From a virus: 42,278 nt of DNA. The notes below the pieces were generated by a model. It was not told the origin of the DNA, did not search any database, and worked only from the letters and a program-made list of their open reading frames with translations. The first letter of the stretch is position 1, and the number at the start of each line of letters is the position of its first letter. Position numbers and translations under genes: made by a program. The stretch is from the IMG/VR virus record IMGVR_UViG_3300027754_000183, positions 1-42,278 of that record; one strand, written 5' to 3'. Shown here piece by piece: positions 18,074-27,163 of the stretch.

Positions 18074-18483
18074 ACTTAACGGTTAAATCTGTTTCAATTA
18101 ACTTTTTCCACCAAACTTGGCCTTTAGTTGAGCATTTTTTTGTTGATGCGTTAAAATGGGGTGGTGATGACTATACCTTAGACCAAATAAAAGGTTTGTT
18201 ATCTAAAGGCGAATGGTTACTTTTGGTGGCGGTAGATGAAGAAAACAGTGTACACGGGGCAGCAGCAGTTAGTTTTATTAATATGCCTAACGATAGAATT
18301 GGGTTTGTTACTGCTATTGGTGGTAAGTTAATTAGTAGTAAAGATACATATGAGCAGTTAACTGTTCTACTAAAGAGTTATGGCGCTACTAAGATTCAAG
18401 GTGCCGCTAGAGAATCTATTGCACGTTTGTGGACTAGATATGGGTTTAAAGAACGCTACAGGATTGTAGAGGCTAAGATATGA
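18070..18483 (+). CDS. GNAT-like protein, possible T7 gp13-type internal virion protein
   Basis: A 137-residue protein with an N-acetyltransferase (GNAT) like pattern: an N-terminal helix (FHQTWPLVEHFFVDALKWGG), a strand pair (GEWLLLVAVDEENSVHGAAA), a central strand (IGFVTAIGGKLI), a helix and the C-terminal motif SIARLWTRYGFKERYRIVEA, typical of GNAT motif B. The acetyl-CoA loop (Q/RxxGxG/A) is not evident, so enzymatic activity is doubtful. T7-like phages code a GNAT-like internal virion protein (gp13) at the head of their ejection module, and this gene holds a comparable place. It overlaps both neighbours by 4 bases. The gp13 analogy is inference from fold pattern and position. Confidence 0.6.
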   Translation: MNLTVKSVSINFFHQTWPLVEHFFVDALKWGGDDYTLDQIKGLLSKGEWLLLVAVDEENSVHGAAAVSFINMPNDRIGFVTAIGGKLISSKDTYEQLTVLLKSYGATKIQGAARESIARLWTRYGFKERYRIVEAKI

Positions 18484-19595
18484 GCATATTAAGAAGCAAA
18501 CACAGCGGTTGGACCCACGAGGGTACACGTACTCCTTTTATGGGTGGTGGTGGGCAATCTCCCCCCACACAAACTTATTCACAAACCTCTAACGTTCCTG
18601 AATACGCACGCCCCTATGTAGAAAACATGTTGCAGTCTGCACAAACGCAGATTTATAACGACGACATGACTTCGTTTCGCCCATACAAAGCGTATAGTTC
18701 CAATCCAGATGATTATGTAGCAGGGTTTTCACCACTGCAAACGTCTGCTCAAAACCAAGCGTATAACATGCAAATGCCAGGTCAGTTTAATGCTGGTTCC
18801 GGTTTAGCTGGTATGGCAGGTATAGGTTCATTAGGAGTTGCAGGACAAGCTGCTGGTGCAGGACAACAATATGCACAACAAGCACAAGATCCAACGGCAA
18901 TGCAAAATTACATGTCGCCTTACATGCAGAACGTGGTTGACTACCAAAAACAATCTGCGTTACGTGATTATCAAATTGCTCAACCAATGAGACAAGCACA
19001 AGCTACAGCTAAAGGTGCATTTGGTGGTAGCCGTCAAGCTATTGAAAACGCTGAAGCACAACGTAATTTAAATACACAGTTACAAGGTATCCAAGCTACT
19101 GGTACACAAAACGCATTTCAAAATGCCCAACAGCAACAACAGTTTGGCGCTCAACTTGGGTTACAAGGGCAGCAAGCAGCGCTTCAAGGTTACGGTCAAG
19201 CTGGTCAAGCTGGAGCTACATTAGGTCAGTTAGGTACTGCCCAACAAAATGCTCAACAGGGTATTATTGGTACTCAATCTCAAATTGGCGCTGCAATGCA
19301 ACAACAAGAGCAGCAGAAAATTAACCAGTCTATTCAAGATTACGCTACGGCTCAACAGTATCCGTTTATGCAATTGGGTATGATGAATGCTATGTTGCGT
19401 GGTCTTCCATTACAACAGGCTACTACTCAACAGTATCAAGCAGCCCCTAATCAATTATCTCAGTTGTCTGGTCTTGGTTTAACTGGTGCAGCAATGTACG
19501 GTATGGCTAAGAAAGAAGGCGGTCAGATTAAAGAGAAAAAAGGTAGTGGTTTAGCTGCACTTGAGTTAAACAGATTAATGGGTAAAAAATCATGA
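18480..19595 (+). CDS. Ala/Gln-rich ejection-type protein
   Basis: A 371-residue protein. Residues about 1-80 have an ordered look (SNVPEYARPYVENMLQSAQT, DDYVAGFSPLQTSAQNQAYN). Residues about 95-300 are Ala/Gln/Gly-rich helices containing the recurring block DYQKQSALRDYQIAQPMRQA followed by KGAFGGSRQAIENAEAQRNL. The C-terminal end is basic (MAKKEGGQIKEKKGSG, LELNRLMGKKS). This block recurs in podoviral internal proteins from water samples and is reminiscent of the alpha-helical T7 gp14/gp15-type proteins that build the channel for DNA entry. It overlaps both neighbours (ATGA). Role inferred from composition and place. Confidence 0.6.
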   Translation: MSILRSKHSGWTHEGTRTPFMGGGGQSPPTQTYSQTSNVPEYARPYVENMLQSAQTQIYNDDMTSFRPYKAYSSNPDDYVAGFSPLQTSAQNQAYNMQMPGQFNAGSGLAGMAGIGSLGVAGQAAGAGQQYAQQAQDPTAMQNYMSPYMQNVVDYQKQSALRDYQIAQPMRQAQATAKGAFGGSRQAIENAEAQRNLNTQLQGIQATGTQNAFQNAQQQQQFGAQLGLQGQQAALQGYGQAGQAGATLGQLGTAQQNAQQGIIGTQSQIGAAMQQQEQQKINQSIQDYATAQQYPFMQLGMMNAMLRGLPLQQATTQQYQAAPNQLSQLSGLGLTGAAMYGMAKKEGGQIKEKKGSGLAALELNRLMGKKS

Positions 19596-21166: not shown

Positions 21167-24100
21167 ATGCCGTATAACGTTCAACTTCCTGACGGAAGAA
21201 TTGTTGAAGGTATTCCAGACGACGTATCTCAATTAGATGCGAAAAAAAGAATCCTAGAAGCTTTCCCTGATTTAGCCGCTAAACAAAAACGTGGTTTTGG
21301 CGAAGCTATTACTGACGTTGGAGCAAGTTTAGTTAGTGGTGTTGGGCAACTTGCACAGATACCCGGACAGATTTCTCAACTAGCTGGAATAACTAAAGCT
21401 GAAGACTCTGATACTGGACTACAAGGTTTAGGTAAACAACTAGAACAGTTTGGACAAGAATCTAAATCGCCTATTCTTAGAGGTAAAGAATTTGTACGGG
21501 CGCAAAAGATTGAAAAGGCTGATGGTATGTTGGCTGAGTTTGGTACAGCCATTAAAGAAACGGTTAAAGACCCAGCTTTGTTGACATCGTTTTTTGCAGA
21601 ACAAGTACCTAACTTACTTGGCTCATGGGGCGGTGGTCTAATTGCTCGTGGTACTACTAAAGCATTGATGGTTGGTGCTACTGAAGAAGCTCTTGGTAAA
21701 GCTGGTGTTCGTGGCGCTATTGGTACAGGTGCTGCAATGCAAGGTGCCGATGTTGGTTCAGATACTTATGTAGCCGCATTTAAAGAACTTAAAAAACAAA
21801 ACCCTGATATGCCCGATGAGGAAGCTACGGGTATTGCCTTAGCTAAAGGACGTGTTGCCGCTATTGAAGCATCGTTTCTATCTTTAGGAGCAGCTAGACT
21901 TCCTGGCGGTGCAACTATTGAACGTGCCCTTGCTGGTAAAGGTATGCCTGGCGTTGGTGGGTTTACTAGAGGTTTTGTAGGTGAAGCAGCATCTGAAGGA
22001 CTAGAAGAAGGTGGCGGTAAGTTTATATCTAACGTAGGCTTACAAGAAATTAACCCTGAACTTAGTTTAACTAAAGGTGTTGGTGCAGCAGCAGGTATGG
22101 GTGCATTGGGTGGTGGTCTATTTGGTGGTGTATCCGGCATGGTTACAGGTGGTAGAGAAGACCAAAGACTACAAGCTATAGCCGACATTGAGCAGTTTAA
22201 GCAAGACACAATTAAAGCACAGGAAGATGCGGTAGCAGCAATAGACCAAGCACGCCGTGATGCCTATGAAACTGAACAAAAAGATACAGAGATGCGCATT
22301 ATGCGTGAAAGACTTGGAGATAGGTTTACTCAGTCTGACGCATACAACGAACTATTAGCTGACGTTGAAGCTTCAAAAGCTAAAGCAGAACAATCTGCAC
22401 AGAATGCCGCAGCAAAACGAGAAGCAGCTATTACCCGCCAAGACGAATTAAAAGCTAGAGAATCTGCATTTACATACGCTGAACCTAATGCACAAGGTGT
22501 TATGGAAGCTGGTCGTCCAATTACAGAAGCTGATTTTAAAGCTATGAACATTGGGGCTACCAATAAAAAATTAAGAAACCAGTTACTAGGCAAAGATTTA
22601 AGTGACCCTAAAGTAGCAAAAGAAGTTAAAACTATTCTAGAAGATTATGCTGGTGGGGATCGTGGCGTTAAAATTATTGAAGGCGTTACTGGCTTTTTAG
22701 AGCGTCCTGAGTTTAGTATCCCTGAACCTAAGAAACGTGAAAGAAAACCAAAAGCTGTTGTAGAACAACAAGTAGCACCAGAAGCGGTAGCGCAAGAAGT
22801 AGTTAAGCCTAAGCGCCGCATGAAACCTTTAAAACCTACGGCGGAAGAGGTATTATCTCAGGAAGAGCAAGATTTAATTCGACAGGAGTTACAAGATGAA
22901 CAATCAGCTTTCAACCAGCAAAGTGCTAGGGAGACTCCTACAGCTGTCAGCGGACCAAGTGAGTCAAGCGTTCGAGTGCCTAGCGACGGATTTGGAACCA
23001 CCCCCGGAATTGACCAATCTAAACGACGAGGAATGGTTCCTGTTGGGAATGATGTTGGACAACCTATTGGAGGAGCGGCACCAGTCCAGCGTGCATTAGG
23101 ACAACAACCTTTAACACTAGAAGAAAAAGCGGCTCAAACAGTTGCCCAAAGAAATGCTCCTGTAAAAGCATACAACCCCGACATTCAAGAACCGTCTGTA
23201 AAACTTAACCCTCGTCAAGCTAAAGAGTATAGAGAAGCAATTGGCAACTACCTAGAAAAAGCAAACTACATAGGGGCTAAAGCCCTTGATGCCCTTGCTG
23301 GGGATATGCACGCTAAAGAAAATAGTAAAGATGCTAACCGTGCGTATCGTGGGTTATCTGAAGAACAAAAAGCTTATGTAGCTGAGCGCACTAAAGAATT
23401 AGAAAAGTATACCCGTCGTGGTAGTGCTTATGCTAAAAAGCAAAATGAAGAAGTGGCAAGACGTAAAGCCTTTGAAGGTACTCTTGAAGAGGAGGAAGGC
23501 GCACCTGCCGTAAAACCTGCTAAAAAACCTAAAGAAAAAACTACTAAAGTTGGTCCTATTAGCGGTACTCCTCTACAACAAAATAAAGAATTTGCCCGCC
23601 GTATGGGGTATGTTGCTAGCGTAGGAGGACATCGTCTAAAAGGTGCGGTCAATAATAAGATGATGACTGCTGCTAAAGCTGGCGATATTAAAGGTGTGTT
23701 AGATGCGTTGGGTAAAAGTAAAAGCCCAATCTACCGTCAAATTGCTAGCATAGCTAGAAACGTAAAAGGTTTAAAGGTAGCCGTAGATAGCACCAAAATT
23801 GAAAAGAAGTTTAGTAAGTTTAAAGAAGGTGTTGATTCCGCTAAGATTACCATTGCCAATATTGATGCACTGCGTGAAGCTAAACGTAGAGTAGATTCGG
23901 GTATGACTGTAAGCAAAGCGGTTGAAGGTATTATTCAATTCCCTAAAGGATTAACTCCTGACGTAAAGTCTGACCAATCACTTTCAAACACGTTGTTTTC
24001 TAATAATGCCTTGTTTGAAAAAGATGCGTTTTACAAGTATGTTGCTGAACAAGAAGCAATGCTTGAAGGGTATGAAGAATCAAATAGATATGCGGCTGGT

Positions 24101-27100
24101 ACTCCAGTTGAAGTAGAAGCTATTCCTGGACTGTATGACCCTGAAACAAACACTATTTATATTGACGAGTATTTTGGTAAGTATGAAGATGTGCTTGCAC
24201 ATGAATTAACTCATGCTATTTCCCACGACTTTGTATCTAGCCCTAGAGCAAAAAATACCCCTACGTATAAAGCACTGGACAAGCTATACCAACATGTACT
24301 TGGTAAGTTTAGTGATAAAGACGCCTATGGGTTATCTAGTTTAGATGAGTTTGTTTCTGAAGGTTTGTCTAACCCATTGTTTCAAAAAGAACTATCTAAT
24401 ATTAAGTATGAGAATACAACTGCATGGAATAAGTTTGTTCAAAGCATTGCTAAAATTCTTGGACTTAAACCTGATAACGCACTAACAGAACTTCTAAACC
24501 TAACTACAACAGCGGCAGAACAAGGGCAATCTACAACCCGTACGGGCAAGCCAGCTTTTTTACTTCAAGCAGCGTCACTAGATGCGCTTTATGAAGCTAC
24601 TGGAGCCAATAGACGTGCCAAGCCTACTGAAGAAACAGGGGCTTTTCAAACTATTAAAGACTCTACAAAGAGTAGGCAAGCCGCTAAGTCTGCAGTTAAT
24701 AAGTTCCTAAACACCGCAGAGACAATGCTATTCTCCGCAGATTCTGCGTTGAATAACGCTATACGTAAAGAATTAGAAAGCAACAAAACTAATTGGGAAA
24801 CCGTTAAACAAATGATGTTTGAGGTAAGCACTTCCCAAGCTACCCACGCAGATGCAGTTGCAATGCAGTTTTTACAGCATGGTTCTCTTAAGTATGACCC
24901 TAAAGCCTATAAGTGGAGAGCAGAAAAAGCTGATGATAGCTGGGCAGGGATTGTTAGTAAGCTAGCAGACATCGCTAAAAATAACGGGTTATCTACAGAA
25001 AAAGTTACTAACTATGCACAACAAGCATTTGTTGCAGAGCGTTTAAAAGGGTTAGCAAAATCAGATCGTGAAATATATAGCCACATGACTCCTGAGCAAA
25101 TTGAAGCTGGGCTTAAGTTCTTTGAAATGCTTCCTGAATTACGTGACGTGCAAAAGAGTTGGAACGCCGTTCGTAAAAATACAATGGACATAGCAGTTCA
25201 AAGCGGGTTATACAACAAAGACCAAGCAAAAGAACTATTAGATATTATGGACTACGTGCCGTTCTACCGTGTTGAGCAATTAGCACAAAGAGCAGGTCCT
25301 AAAGAGTATGGTCGTGGTTTGATTGATTTTGCTAAAGGTTTTAAAATTAAAGGTAGTGAACAAGAAGTTGCCAACATTTTTGATAACATGGAACGTTGGA
25401 CTAGTTATACCGTAGCTCGTGCGGTAAAGAACCGTAGTGCATTAAACCTGTACGATACAGCTAAAAAACTATTTCCTGACGAAGTTAAAGATTTACGTCA
25501 AGACGAGACTGTGCATCGTGAACAAAATACTATTGACTTATGGGTAGATGGTCAACGCCAAAAAGTAGAGTTTAAAGACCCATTGTTTGTTTATGCCTTT
25601 ACGGGTATAGAGTCTGCCGCTATTCCTCATTTTGGTGTTGCTTCTGCTGCCTCAAATATTTTACGTAAAAATATCGTGTTGATGCCTTTGTTCTCTATTA
25701 GCCAGCTTTCCCAAGACTCGTTTGGTGCAATGCTTACATCAGGACTAAAGCATCCTTGGTTGTTACCTTTAGAAGTAGCTAAAGAGTTTACTAAAACCCT
25801 ACGAGGTAAAAGTGCGGCTGCTACTGAATTGACTAAGTATGGTGCGGTTGGGGTGCGTGATTACTCGGCTACGTTTATTAGGGAAAACGCTGAGATTTTG
25901 GCTGGCTTAAAGAAAGATACTAAGTCAGGTGCGTTTATGCGGGCGCTTGAAAACTTTGCTATGGCTTCTGATAATGCGGTACGTCAGGCGGTTTACAACA
26001 TGACCCTAAAAGAAACAGGGGATAAAGCATTAGCGGTTGAGCGTGCGTTTGAAATTATTAACTTTAAACGTGCTGGTGCGTCAGGCAACATTCAAATGTT
26101 ACGTCAGGTAGTACCGTTCTTTGGTGCGTATTTACAAGCTCAAAACGTGATCTACAAGACCCTATCAGGTAAAGGTATTGCGCCGCAACAAAAGAAAGAA
26201 GCGCATCGTATCCTTGCTTCTAACGCATTAAAGATTGGTGCTTTGGCATTTATGTATGCCGCATTAAGTGCAGATGATGAAGATTACCAAAAGATGGATC
26301 CAAGTATCCGTGATCGTCACTTGTTGATTCCAGGTACAGCCTTCATGTTGCCATTGCGTAGTGACTTAACTTTAATGCCTAAACTTATTGCTGAATATAC
26401 CTACTTGGGTATGACTGATAACTCATTTACTGATGATAAAAAGATTCGCCGTGCTATGAGCAGTGCATTAGCCGAAGCAGTACTTAGCCCTACTGTTGTA
26501 CCACAAGTATTTAAACCTTTCTTAGAAGTAGGCACAAACTACAACTTCTTTACAGGTCGTTCTATTATTGGTCAACACTTGGCAGGTTTAGAAACTGAAA
26601 AACAATATACAACTAGCACTTCTGAATTAGGTAAATTTATTGGTAGTTCGGGATTAATTGCCCCCGTAAACGTAGACCATATAATTAAAGGGGTTACAGG
26701 CACTACTGGCGGTTTACTTTTACATTTGACAAACGGATTGGTAAATGGTGTTAGTGACCAACCTAGACCTGAAAAGAGTTGGCAAGATGCGATTGCTAGT
26801 ACCCCTGGTTTAAGTGCGTTTGTTGCTAAAGAGTATGGCAATGCCGATAAAAATGATTACTATGAGCTTCGTGATGAAGTTTCTAAGGCGGTTAATACTT
26901 TAAGGGATATTGAGAAACACGGCACGGTGGAAGAGTACCGAGAATTTGAGAGTAAACGAGTAGACCTTCTCAAAACTAAAGACCAAGTAAACAATATCAA
27001 TAGGCAACTATCTGAGTTACGTGCGTACGAAAGAGACGTTATTGAAGCCCCTGAGTCTAGGATGGACGCAGAGAAAAAAGGTCAAGAGATTGAGCGTATC

Positions 27101-27163
27101 CGTCAGATGGAAAAGAAAATGCTTGGTAACGTAAATCAGTTACGACGGATGGCTGGCTACTAA
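21167..27163 (+). CDS. Giant ejection-type protein with HExxH motif (large polyvalent type)
   Basis: A 1998-residue protein, the largest in the window. The N-terminus (MPYNVQLPDGRIVEGIPDDV) is a small conserved opening of phage ejection proteins. Residues about 45-330 are Gly/Ala-rich with amphipathic segments, 340-430 are charged coiled coil, and 560-650 is a Pro/Gly/Ser linker that also overlaps a second gene in another frame. A zinc metallopeptidase motif HELTH lies at 1012-1016, with acidic residues in DEFVSEGL (E1061, E1065) as possible third ligand. Residues about 1500-1790 (FSISQLSQDSFGAML, INFKRAGASGNIQML, VVPFFGAYLQAQNVIY) resemble the large polyvalent-protein domain LPD38. Such proteins are packaged and injected, in the role of T7 gp16. 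It ends at the convergent terminator. Confidence 0.7.
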   Translation: MPYNVQLPDGRIVEGIPDDVSQLDAKKRILEAFPDLAAKQKRGFGEAITDVGASLVSGVGQLAQIPGQISQLAGITKAEDSDTGLQGLGKQLEQFGQESKSPILRGKEFVRAQKIEKADGMLAEFGTAIKETVKDPALLTSFFAEQVPNLLGSWGGGLIARGTTKALMVGATEEALGKAGVRGAIGTGAAMQGADVGSDTYVAAFKELKKQNPDMPDEEATGIALAKGRVAAIEASFLSLGAARLPGGATIERALAGKGMPGVGGFTRGFVGEAASEGLEEGGGKFISNVGLQEINPELSLTKGVGAAAGMGALGGGLFGGVSGMVTGGREDQRLQAIADIEQFKQDTIKAQEDAVAAIDQARRDAYETEQKDTEMRIMRERLGDRFTQSDAYNELLADVEASKAKAEQSAQNAAAKREAAITRQDELKARESAFTYAEPNAQGVMEAGRPITEADFKAMNIGATNKKLRNQLLGKDLSDPKVAKEVKTILEDYAGGDRGVKIIEGVTGFLERPEFSIPEPKKRERKPKAVVEQQVAPEAVAQEVVKPKRRMKPLKPTAEEVLSQEEQDLIRQELQDEQSAFNQQSARETPTAVSGPSESSVRVPSDGFGTTPGIDQSKRRGMVPVGNDVGQPIGGAAPVQRALGQQPLTLEEKAAQTVAQRNAPVKAYNPDIQEPSVKLNPRQAKEYREAIGNYLEKANYIGAKALDALAGDMHAKENSKDANRAYRGLSEEQKAYVAERTKELEKYTRRGSAYAKKQNEEVARRKAFEGTLEEEEGAPAVKPAKKPKEKTTKVGPISGTPLQQNKEFARRMGYVASVGGHRLKGAVNNKMMTAAKAGDIKGVLDALGKSKSPIYRQIASIARNVKGLKVAVDSTKIEKKFSKFKEGVDSAKITIANIDALREAKRRVDSGMTVSKAVEGIIQFPKGLTPDVKSDQSLSNTLFSNNALFEKDAFYKYVAEQEAMLEGYEESNRYAAGTPVEVEAIPGLYDPETNTIYIDEYFGKYEDVLAHELTHAISHDFVSSPRAKNTPTYKALDKLYQHVLGKFSDKDAYGLSSLDEFVSEGLSNPLFQKELSNIKYENTTAWNKFVQSIAKILGLKPDNALTELLNLTTTAAEQGQSTTRTGKPAFLLQAASLDALYEATGANRRAKPTEETGAFQTIKDSTKSRQAAKSAVNKFLNTAETMLFSADSALNNAIRKELESNKTNWETVKQMMFEVSTSQATHADAVAMQFLQHGSLKYDPKAYKWRAEKADDSWAGIVSKLADIAKNNGLSTEKVTNYAQQAFVAERLKGLAKSDREIYSHMTPEQIEAGLKFFEMLPELRDVQKSWNAVRKNTMDIAVQSGLYNKDQAKELLDIMDYVPFYRVEQLAQRAGPKEYGRGLIDFAKGFKIKGSEQEVANIFDNMERWTSYTVARAVKNRSALNLYDTAKKLFPDEVKDLRQDETVHREQNTIDLWVDGQRQKVEFKDPLFVYAFTGIESAAIPHFGVASAASNILRKNIVLMPLFSISQLSQDSFGAMLTSGLKHPWLLPLEVAKEFTKTLRGKSAAATELTKYGAVGVRDYSATFIRENAEILAGLKKDTKSGAFMRALENFAMASDNAVRQAVYNMTLKETGDKALAVERAFEIINFKRAGASGNIQMLRQVVPFFGAYLQAQNVIYKTLSGKGIAPQQKKEAHRILASNALKIGALAFMYAALSADDEDYQKMDPSIRDRHLLIPGTAFMLPLRSDLTLMPKLIAEYTYLGMTDNSFTDDKKIRRAMSSALAEAVLSPTVVPQVFKPFLEVGTNYNFFTGRSIIGQHLAGLETEKQYTTSTSELGKFIGSSGLIAPVNVDHIIKGVTGTTGGLLLHLTNGLVNGVSDQPRPEKSWQDAIASTPGLSAFVAKEYGNADKNDYYELRDEVSKAVNTLRDIEKHGTVEEYREFESKRVDLLKTKDQVNNINRQLSELRAYERDVIEAPESRMDAEKKGQEIERIRQMEKKMLGNVNQLRRMAGY
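22896..23099 (+). CDS. Nested out-of-frame gene, 67 aa, unknown function
   Basis: This gene lies wholly inside the giant ejection gene in another frame (+1 relative to it). The ATG is preceded by AGGAG at 22884-22888 with a 7-base spacer, a perfect ribosome-binding site in the middle of a coding region. The product is a coherent, non-low-complexity helical protein: LLQLSADQVSQAFECLATDL, then PPPELTNLNDEEWFLLGMML, then DNLLEERHQ. The outer protein in this stretch (residues 577-644) is a Gly/Pro/Ser linker with arginine CGA and glycine GGA codons where its other parts favour CGT and GGT, as expected if the inner frame is the constrained one. The function is unknown. It could be made separately from the late mRNA. 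Confidence 0.7.
   Translation: MNNQLSTSKVLGRLLQLSADQVSQAFECLATDLEPPPELTNLNDEEWFLLGMMLDNLLEERHQSSVH

Follow-up and report, generated by a model that had tools for sequence, protein, structure and literature searches.

Comparative evidence for a small gene nested within the linker of a giant phage polyvalent-protein gene

Introduction

An open reading frame that is located out of frame within a larger gene raises the question of whether it encodes a protein and, if so, what its product might do. We have addressed this question for a locus in the viral record IMGVR_UViG_3300027754_000183, which was analysed over its full length of 42,278 bases (the window) and whose late structural module is found on the + strand. 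A preliminary description had pointed to a small gene hidden in a giant ejection-protein gene and had suggested that its product, made either early or late, could be a regulator or anti-host factor. The relevant features of the locus are as follows.

21167-27163, + strand: outer giant gene encoding a large polyvalent protein of 1998 amino acids with an LPD38 domain, presumed to be injected with the DNA
22875-22877, + strand: inner-frame stop TAA, 6 codons 5' of the inner ATG, speaking against frameshift entry from the outer frame 5' of this stop; the stop-to-stop frame extends from 22878
22884-22888, + strand: Shine-Dalgarno (SD) sequence AGGAG, 7 nt 5' of the inner ATG (AGGAG-TTACAAG-ATG)
22895-23098, + strand: outer-frame linker (DEQSAFNQQSARETPTAVSGPSESSVRVPSDGFGTTPG...PVQRAL) over the inner gene, 41% Gly/Pro/Ser/Thr
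22896-23099, + strand: nested gene in frame +1 relative to the giant ORF, starting with ATG and comprising 67 codons and a stop
24200-24214, + strand: HELTH zinc-metallopeptidase motif at residue 1012 of the outer protein, in a variable cargo region 3' of the nested gene

Results

Position and codon usage of the nested frame

The second position of inner codons coincides with the third position of outer codons and the third with the outer first. Both the location of the frame and the perfect AGGAG ahead of it were confirmed, as was the proposed switch of the outer gene to CGA and GGA codons, which account for 11 of 14 Arg and Gly codons in the overlap compared to 25 of 249 in the rest of the gene. 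The windows of lowest codon adaptation in the giant gene fall into the same region, with mean values of 0.46 for the inner frame, 0.53 for the outer frame in the overlap and 0.71 elsewhere. The length of the frame provides no evidence for a gene, since among 2000 synonymous shuffles of the giant gene, 642 harbour a +1 ORF that starts with ATG and spans at least 67 codons. Although the shift in codon usage is real, the case for a nested gene thus rests on comparison.

Homologues and their distribution

Searches of viral contigs identified 54 distinct homologues of the inner ORF, all from metagenomic records of uncultured phages. All 54 lie within a giant polyvalent-protein gene and are read in its +1 frame. 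With a profile built from the inner protein, 37 viral loci were detected, each encoding it in frame +1 of its giant ORF, and a second scan, based independently on the C-terminal region of the outer protein, retrieved 80 loci, where each inner copy found was again nested in the +1 frame. The gene is present exactly once in the described record and in each of the 15 carriers whose records were searched whole. In the first two relatives (L001 and L002), the inner protein is shared to 93% and 91%, respectively, and the similarity of the outer protein collapses right after the inner stop. Where the identity between outer C-termini drops to about 30%, the inner proteins still share about 45%.

No inner copy was detectable in a clade of 15 LPD38-containing loci with intact full-length giants, even in searches of the whole records, and the nested gene is thus not universally needed. 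On the LPD38 tree, the presence of the gene requires five changes compared to a mean of 20.5 after shuffling, with three 5'-truncated loci scored as absent. Cultured phages with related giants are devoid of the nested gene, five different inner sequences gave no credible match in cultured phages and plasmids, and a scan of bacterial genomes for the inner protein found none. A weak homologue in phage ctsTn925 (L074) was rejected, as it covers only 26 residues in a frame lacking the motif, and so were the conserved +1 ORFs of the clade without the nested gene (L097, L114, L121 and L125), which follow a conserved outer domain. The inner-less giants L117 and L137 contain short +1 ORFs (LSPKAR..) preceded by SD sequences near the usual position (around codons 636 and 625, respectively), which share weak similarity with each other and could represent either another nested gene or chance.

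Selection on the inner frame

In all 24 pairs, differences at third positions of outer codons are lower in the overlap (0.00-0.29) than outside (0.09-0.61), as exemplified by pairs with values of 0.04 versus 0.26 and 0.02 versus 0.41, and the amino-acid identity within the overlap is higher for the inner than for the outer protein. In 17 pairs, the differences at inner codon positions 1, 2 and 3 amount to 131, 68 and 219, most being synonymous in the inner frame. For the same DNA and pairs, the ratio omega (NG86), where defined, is 0-0.29 for the inner and 1.0-12.9 for the outer frame, values that are approximate for overlapping frames, whereas the switch in substitution phase is model-free. 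For L001 and L002, fourfold sites show zero differences in the 30-codon blocks starting at outer codons 571 and 601, compared to about one quarter elsewhere. In a scan for windows with an open +1 frame and a switched phase, the best window corresponds to the nested gene in seven of the eight listed pairs carrying the inner frame; the eighth pair is nearly identical and yields no window, and L140-L144 are too similar for one. These substitution patterns show purifying selection on the inner frame and bear out the earlier suggestion that it is the constrained one of the two. Among the homologues, the inner frame contains no stops, the SD-start pair is kept and outer synonymous change collapses, the opposite of what had been named beforehand as speaking against a gene.

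Translation initiation

An SD core is located 5-10 nt (mostly 6-7 nt) before the start in 53 of 54 homologues, with ATG serving as start codon in 42, GTG in 10 and TTG in one case. In random +1 stretches, an SD core precedes the start in 100 of 2291 cases, using a list of cores slightly stricter than the one applied to the homologues. The start with its SD sequence lies at the border of the conserved stretch of the inner frame, and an in-frame stop is found within 15 codons upstream, often at 0-7 codons, in 37 of 52 homologues, which in these cases disfavours entry by frameshift from the upstream outer frame. Together, the kept SD-start and the upstream stops make independent internal initiation the simplest route. 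Since the three promoter-like sites found 5' of the nested gene do not exceed chance (2.8 expected), it is presumably made from the late mRNA of the giant gene. Its location within a late virion gene also renders early production, one of the two timings initially considered, unlikely.

The outer protein and its linker

The giant protein contains a Pfam LPD38 domain at residues 1704-1874 (E 7.9e-23), and LPD39 and ART-PolyVal domains are found in its relatives, the combination of such domains in one long polypeptide being characteristic of the polyvalent proteins of phages and conjugative elements (Iyer et al., 2017, PMC5512222). It is encoded in a late virion-gene context with structural and ejection-like neighbours, including a gene located two genes 5' (18480-19595), whose product weakly matches the PHROG family 'DNA ejection protein'. 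Injection of the giant protein into the host is predicted (PMC5512222).

The description of the outer segment as a Gly/Pro/Ser linker in the overlap holds for this record and beyond: it is of low complexity in all loci, with a mean Gly/Pro/Ser/Thr content of 44% compared to 23% elsewhere, and the overlap is the segment of the protein richest in these residues in 45 of 66 loci. A recurring SEPSVxVPS pattern in the outer protein is the inner LSPEQVSQAF motif read in the other frame. Variable cargo follows downstream, comprising several types of metallopeptidases, ART-PolyVal, a YkuD-like domain or, in L057, no recognised domain. A metallopeptidase domain is present just 3' of the nested gene in most giants carrying it, and their C-termini contain either LPD38 or LPD39. 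The inner gene is thus retained when outer modules are exchanged, as in L099, whose N-terminus resembles that of L063 and whose C-terminus falls within the inner-less clade.

The outer protein is hypervariable among otherwise near-identical relatives from the nested gene to its C-terminal region (23147-24587), with metallopeptidases of the HELTH type in this record and of a HETTHGFLHAL-like type in close relatives pointing to an exchange of cargo in a polyvalent protein. ART-PolyVal is found in the cargo region of the giant L047:6194-12895 and, weakly, of L061:6131-12484, and a YkuD-like (L,D-transpeptidase) match in that of L050:6056-12568. The giants of L049, L051, L052, L056 and L066 harbour a second C-terminal type (LPD39 in L049, related in the others) together with the same nested gene, and the N-terminal modules of L066 and the LPD38-type L057 share 61% identity, which points to module exchange.

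Properties of the inner product

The inner product of this record (containing, for example, the peptide VLGRLLQLSADQVSQAFECLATDLEPPPELTNLNDEEWFLLGMMLDNLLEER) is an acidic protein of 67 residues with a pI of 4.24, for which AlphaFold2 predicts three helices (pLDDT 77). A relative of 58 residues, modelled with 53 sequences, is equally predicted to be helical (pLDDT 83). The 53 aligned products span 55-68 residues with a median pI of 4.44 and 53 of 53 carry a net negative charge; the more divergent copy in L127 was read as 75 residues. The product lacks a hydrophobic segment, with the mean Kyte-Doolittle value over 19 residues reaching at most 0.45, and a conserved cysteine (C28) is located mid-protein in a predicted helix. 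Despite its many homologues, it matches no family in Pfam, PHROGs, NCBIfam or PADLOC, known anti-defence and anti-host profiles included, and fold searches of PDB and BFVD gave no significant match. Annotation programs generally skip genes nested in another frame, which would account for its absence from the searched libraries.

Discussion

A protein-coding gene

The inner frame is conserved wholly inside another gene, is subject to purifying selection and has its own ribosome-binding site and start. With a probability of about 0.9, we thus regard it as a real protein-coding gene that arose by overprinting within the disordered linker of a polyvalent, presumably injected giant phage protein, a reading derived from comparison of sequences. 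The alternatives are weighed against the same data. A frame that is open only through the composition and constraint of the outer protein would agree with the abundance of equally long frames in the shuffles, yet it is refuted by the substitution phase, whose switch to the inner frame is seen in all pairs, and conflicts with the kept SD-start and the inner identity exceeding that of the outer C-termini; we give it hardly any credence. The same low standing applies to a conserved RNA or regulatory element, which could underlie the conservation of outer synonymous sites but not the codon periodicity of the mostly inner-synonymous changes, nor the retention of an SD sequence and start where the start codon itself varies. 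Only marginally less improbable is a programmed frameshift that would yield a shortened polyvalent protein ending in a different C-terminus. Although the offset between the two frames is invariably +1, the nearby upstream stops and the SD-preceded start at the border of the conserved stretch argue against this mechanism, the case being weaker for about 15 loci where the frame stays open further upstream.

As to the origin of the overlap, overprinting in a pre-existing linker, with the outer frame being older, is mildly favoured by the gradient in codon adaptation and by the fact that continuous giants lacking the nested gene exist. The reverse order, where the giant gene was extended through an older small gene, may also apply, since the inner product looks structured and the outer segment disordered.

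Proposed role of the product

If the gene is expressed as proposed, ribosomes would start independently inside the late mRNA of the giant gene and produce, together with the giant protein, one of about 55-75 residues that is soluble, acidic and helical. Tentatively, and short of considering it probable, we propose that this small protein has the giant itself as its target and serves it as a dedicated chaperone or as a partner in assembly or packaging, which might keep the modular protein soluble and export-ready or be co-packaged with it. This proposal is motivated by the obligate nesting, which would guarantee co-production, by the small, acidic and helical character of the product and by its persistence across changes of cargo and of C-terminal type. 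Nesting is weak in this respect, because overprinted genes that are simply unable to move would give the same pattern, and the evidence for a partner is also compatible with an independent role directed at the host. Proteins that are small, acidic and helical frequently act as inhibitors, and a putative anti-host or regulatory protein unrelated to the giant would be consistent with this character and with its retention by selection across many phages. Conversely, the product matches no family, its gene lies inside a late gene with no promoter-like signal beyond chance and, in the records searched whole, it never occurs elsewhere; we view such a role as possible but rather unlikely.

A protein that inhibits an enzymatic domain of the giant, such as the metallopeptidase, to protect the producing cell or virion would fit the frequent location of this domain just downstream. 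This idea is weakened by inner-carrying giants without detectable metallopeptidase, where the gene is kept with ART, YkuD-like or no recognised cargo. Since the cargo varies, no single enzyme would be the common target, and we consider an inhibitor or antidote improbable. In case the partner role applies, the nested genes might define a so far unannotated family of cognate polyvalent-protein partners, with effector and chaperone or packaging factor originating from the same mRNA, a rather doubtful extension that would provide a phage counterpart of dedicated secretion chaperones. With the nested gene, polyvalent proteins gain a component that had not been expected; how they are packaged and handled by the cells producing them is poorly understood. 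The locus illustrates how a gene that selection maintains in diverse phages can be missing from all family libraries searched, and it offers a strong test case for the discovery of overlapping genes from metagenomic alignments.

Comparison with known systems

The outer protein resembles described polyvalent proteins in its LPD38 domain, the metallopeptidase and ART cargo, the late virion context and the predicted injection (PMC5512222); the terms 'overlapping' and 'small protein' do not occur in the text of that study. A precedent for the arrangement is Rz1 of phage lambda, an outer-membrane lipoprotein for lysis whose gene is embedded in Rz and which together with Rz forms a two-component spanin (PMC6139136). 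In both cases, a small gene is wholly contained in the +1 frame of another gene of a dsDNA phage. The two spanin products work together, whereas a partnership with the giant is putative here. Unlike Rz1, the nested product shows no recognisable signal, lipobox or hydrophobic segment, its host gene is a late injected-protein gene, and an assignment as Rz1-type o-spanin was rejected, with the conserved cysteine located in a predicted helix mid-protein. Wholly contained genes are a known class in viruses (PMC7017920, PMC8227390) and comprise 30% of the overlaps in PMC7017920. In contrast to viral overlaps in general, the contained gene described here is well conserved and predicted to be structured, its container is linker-like in the overlap and the nested arrangement spans highly diverged phages.
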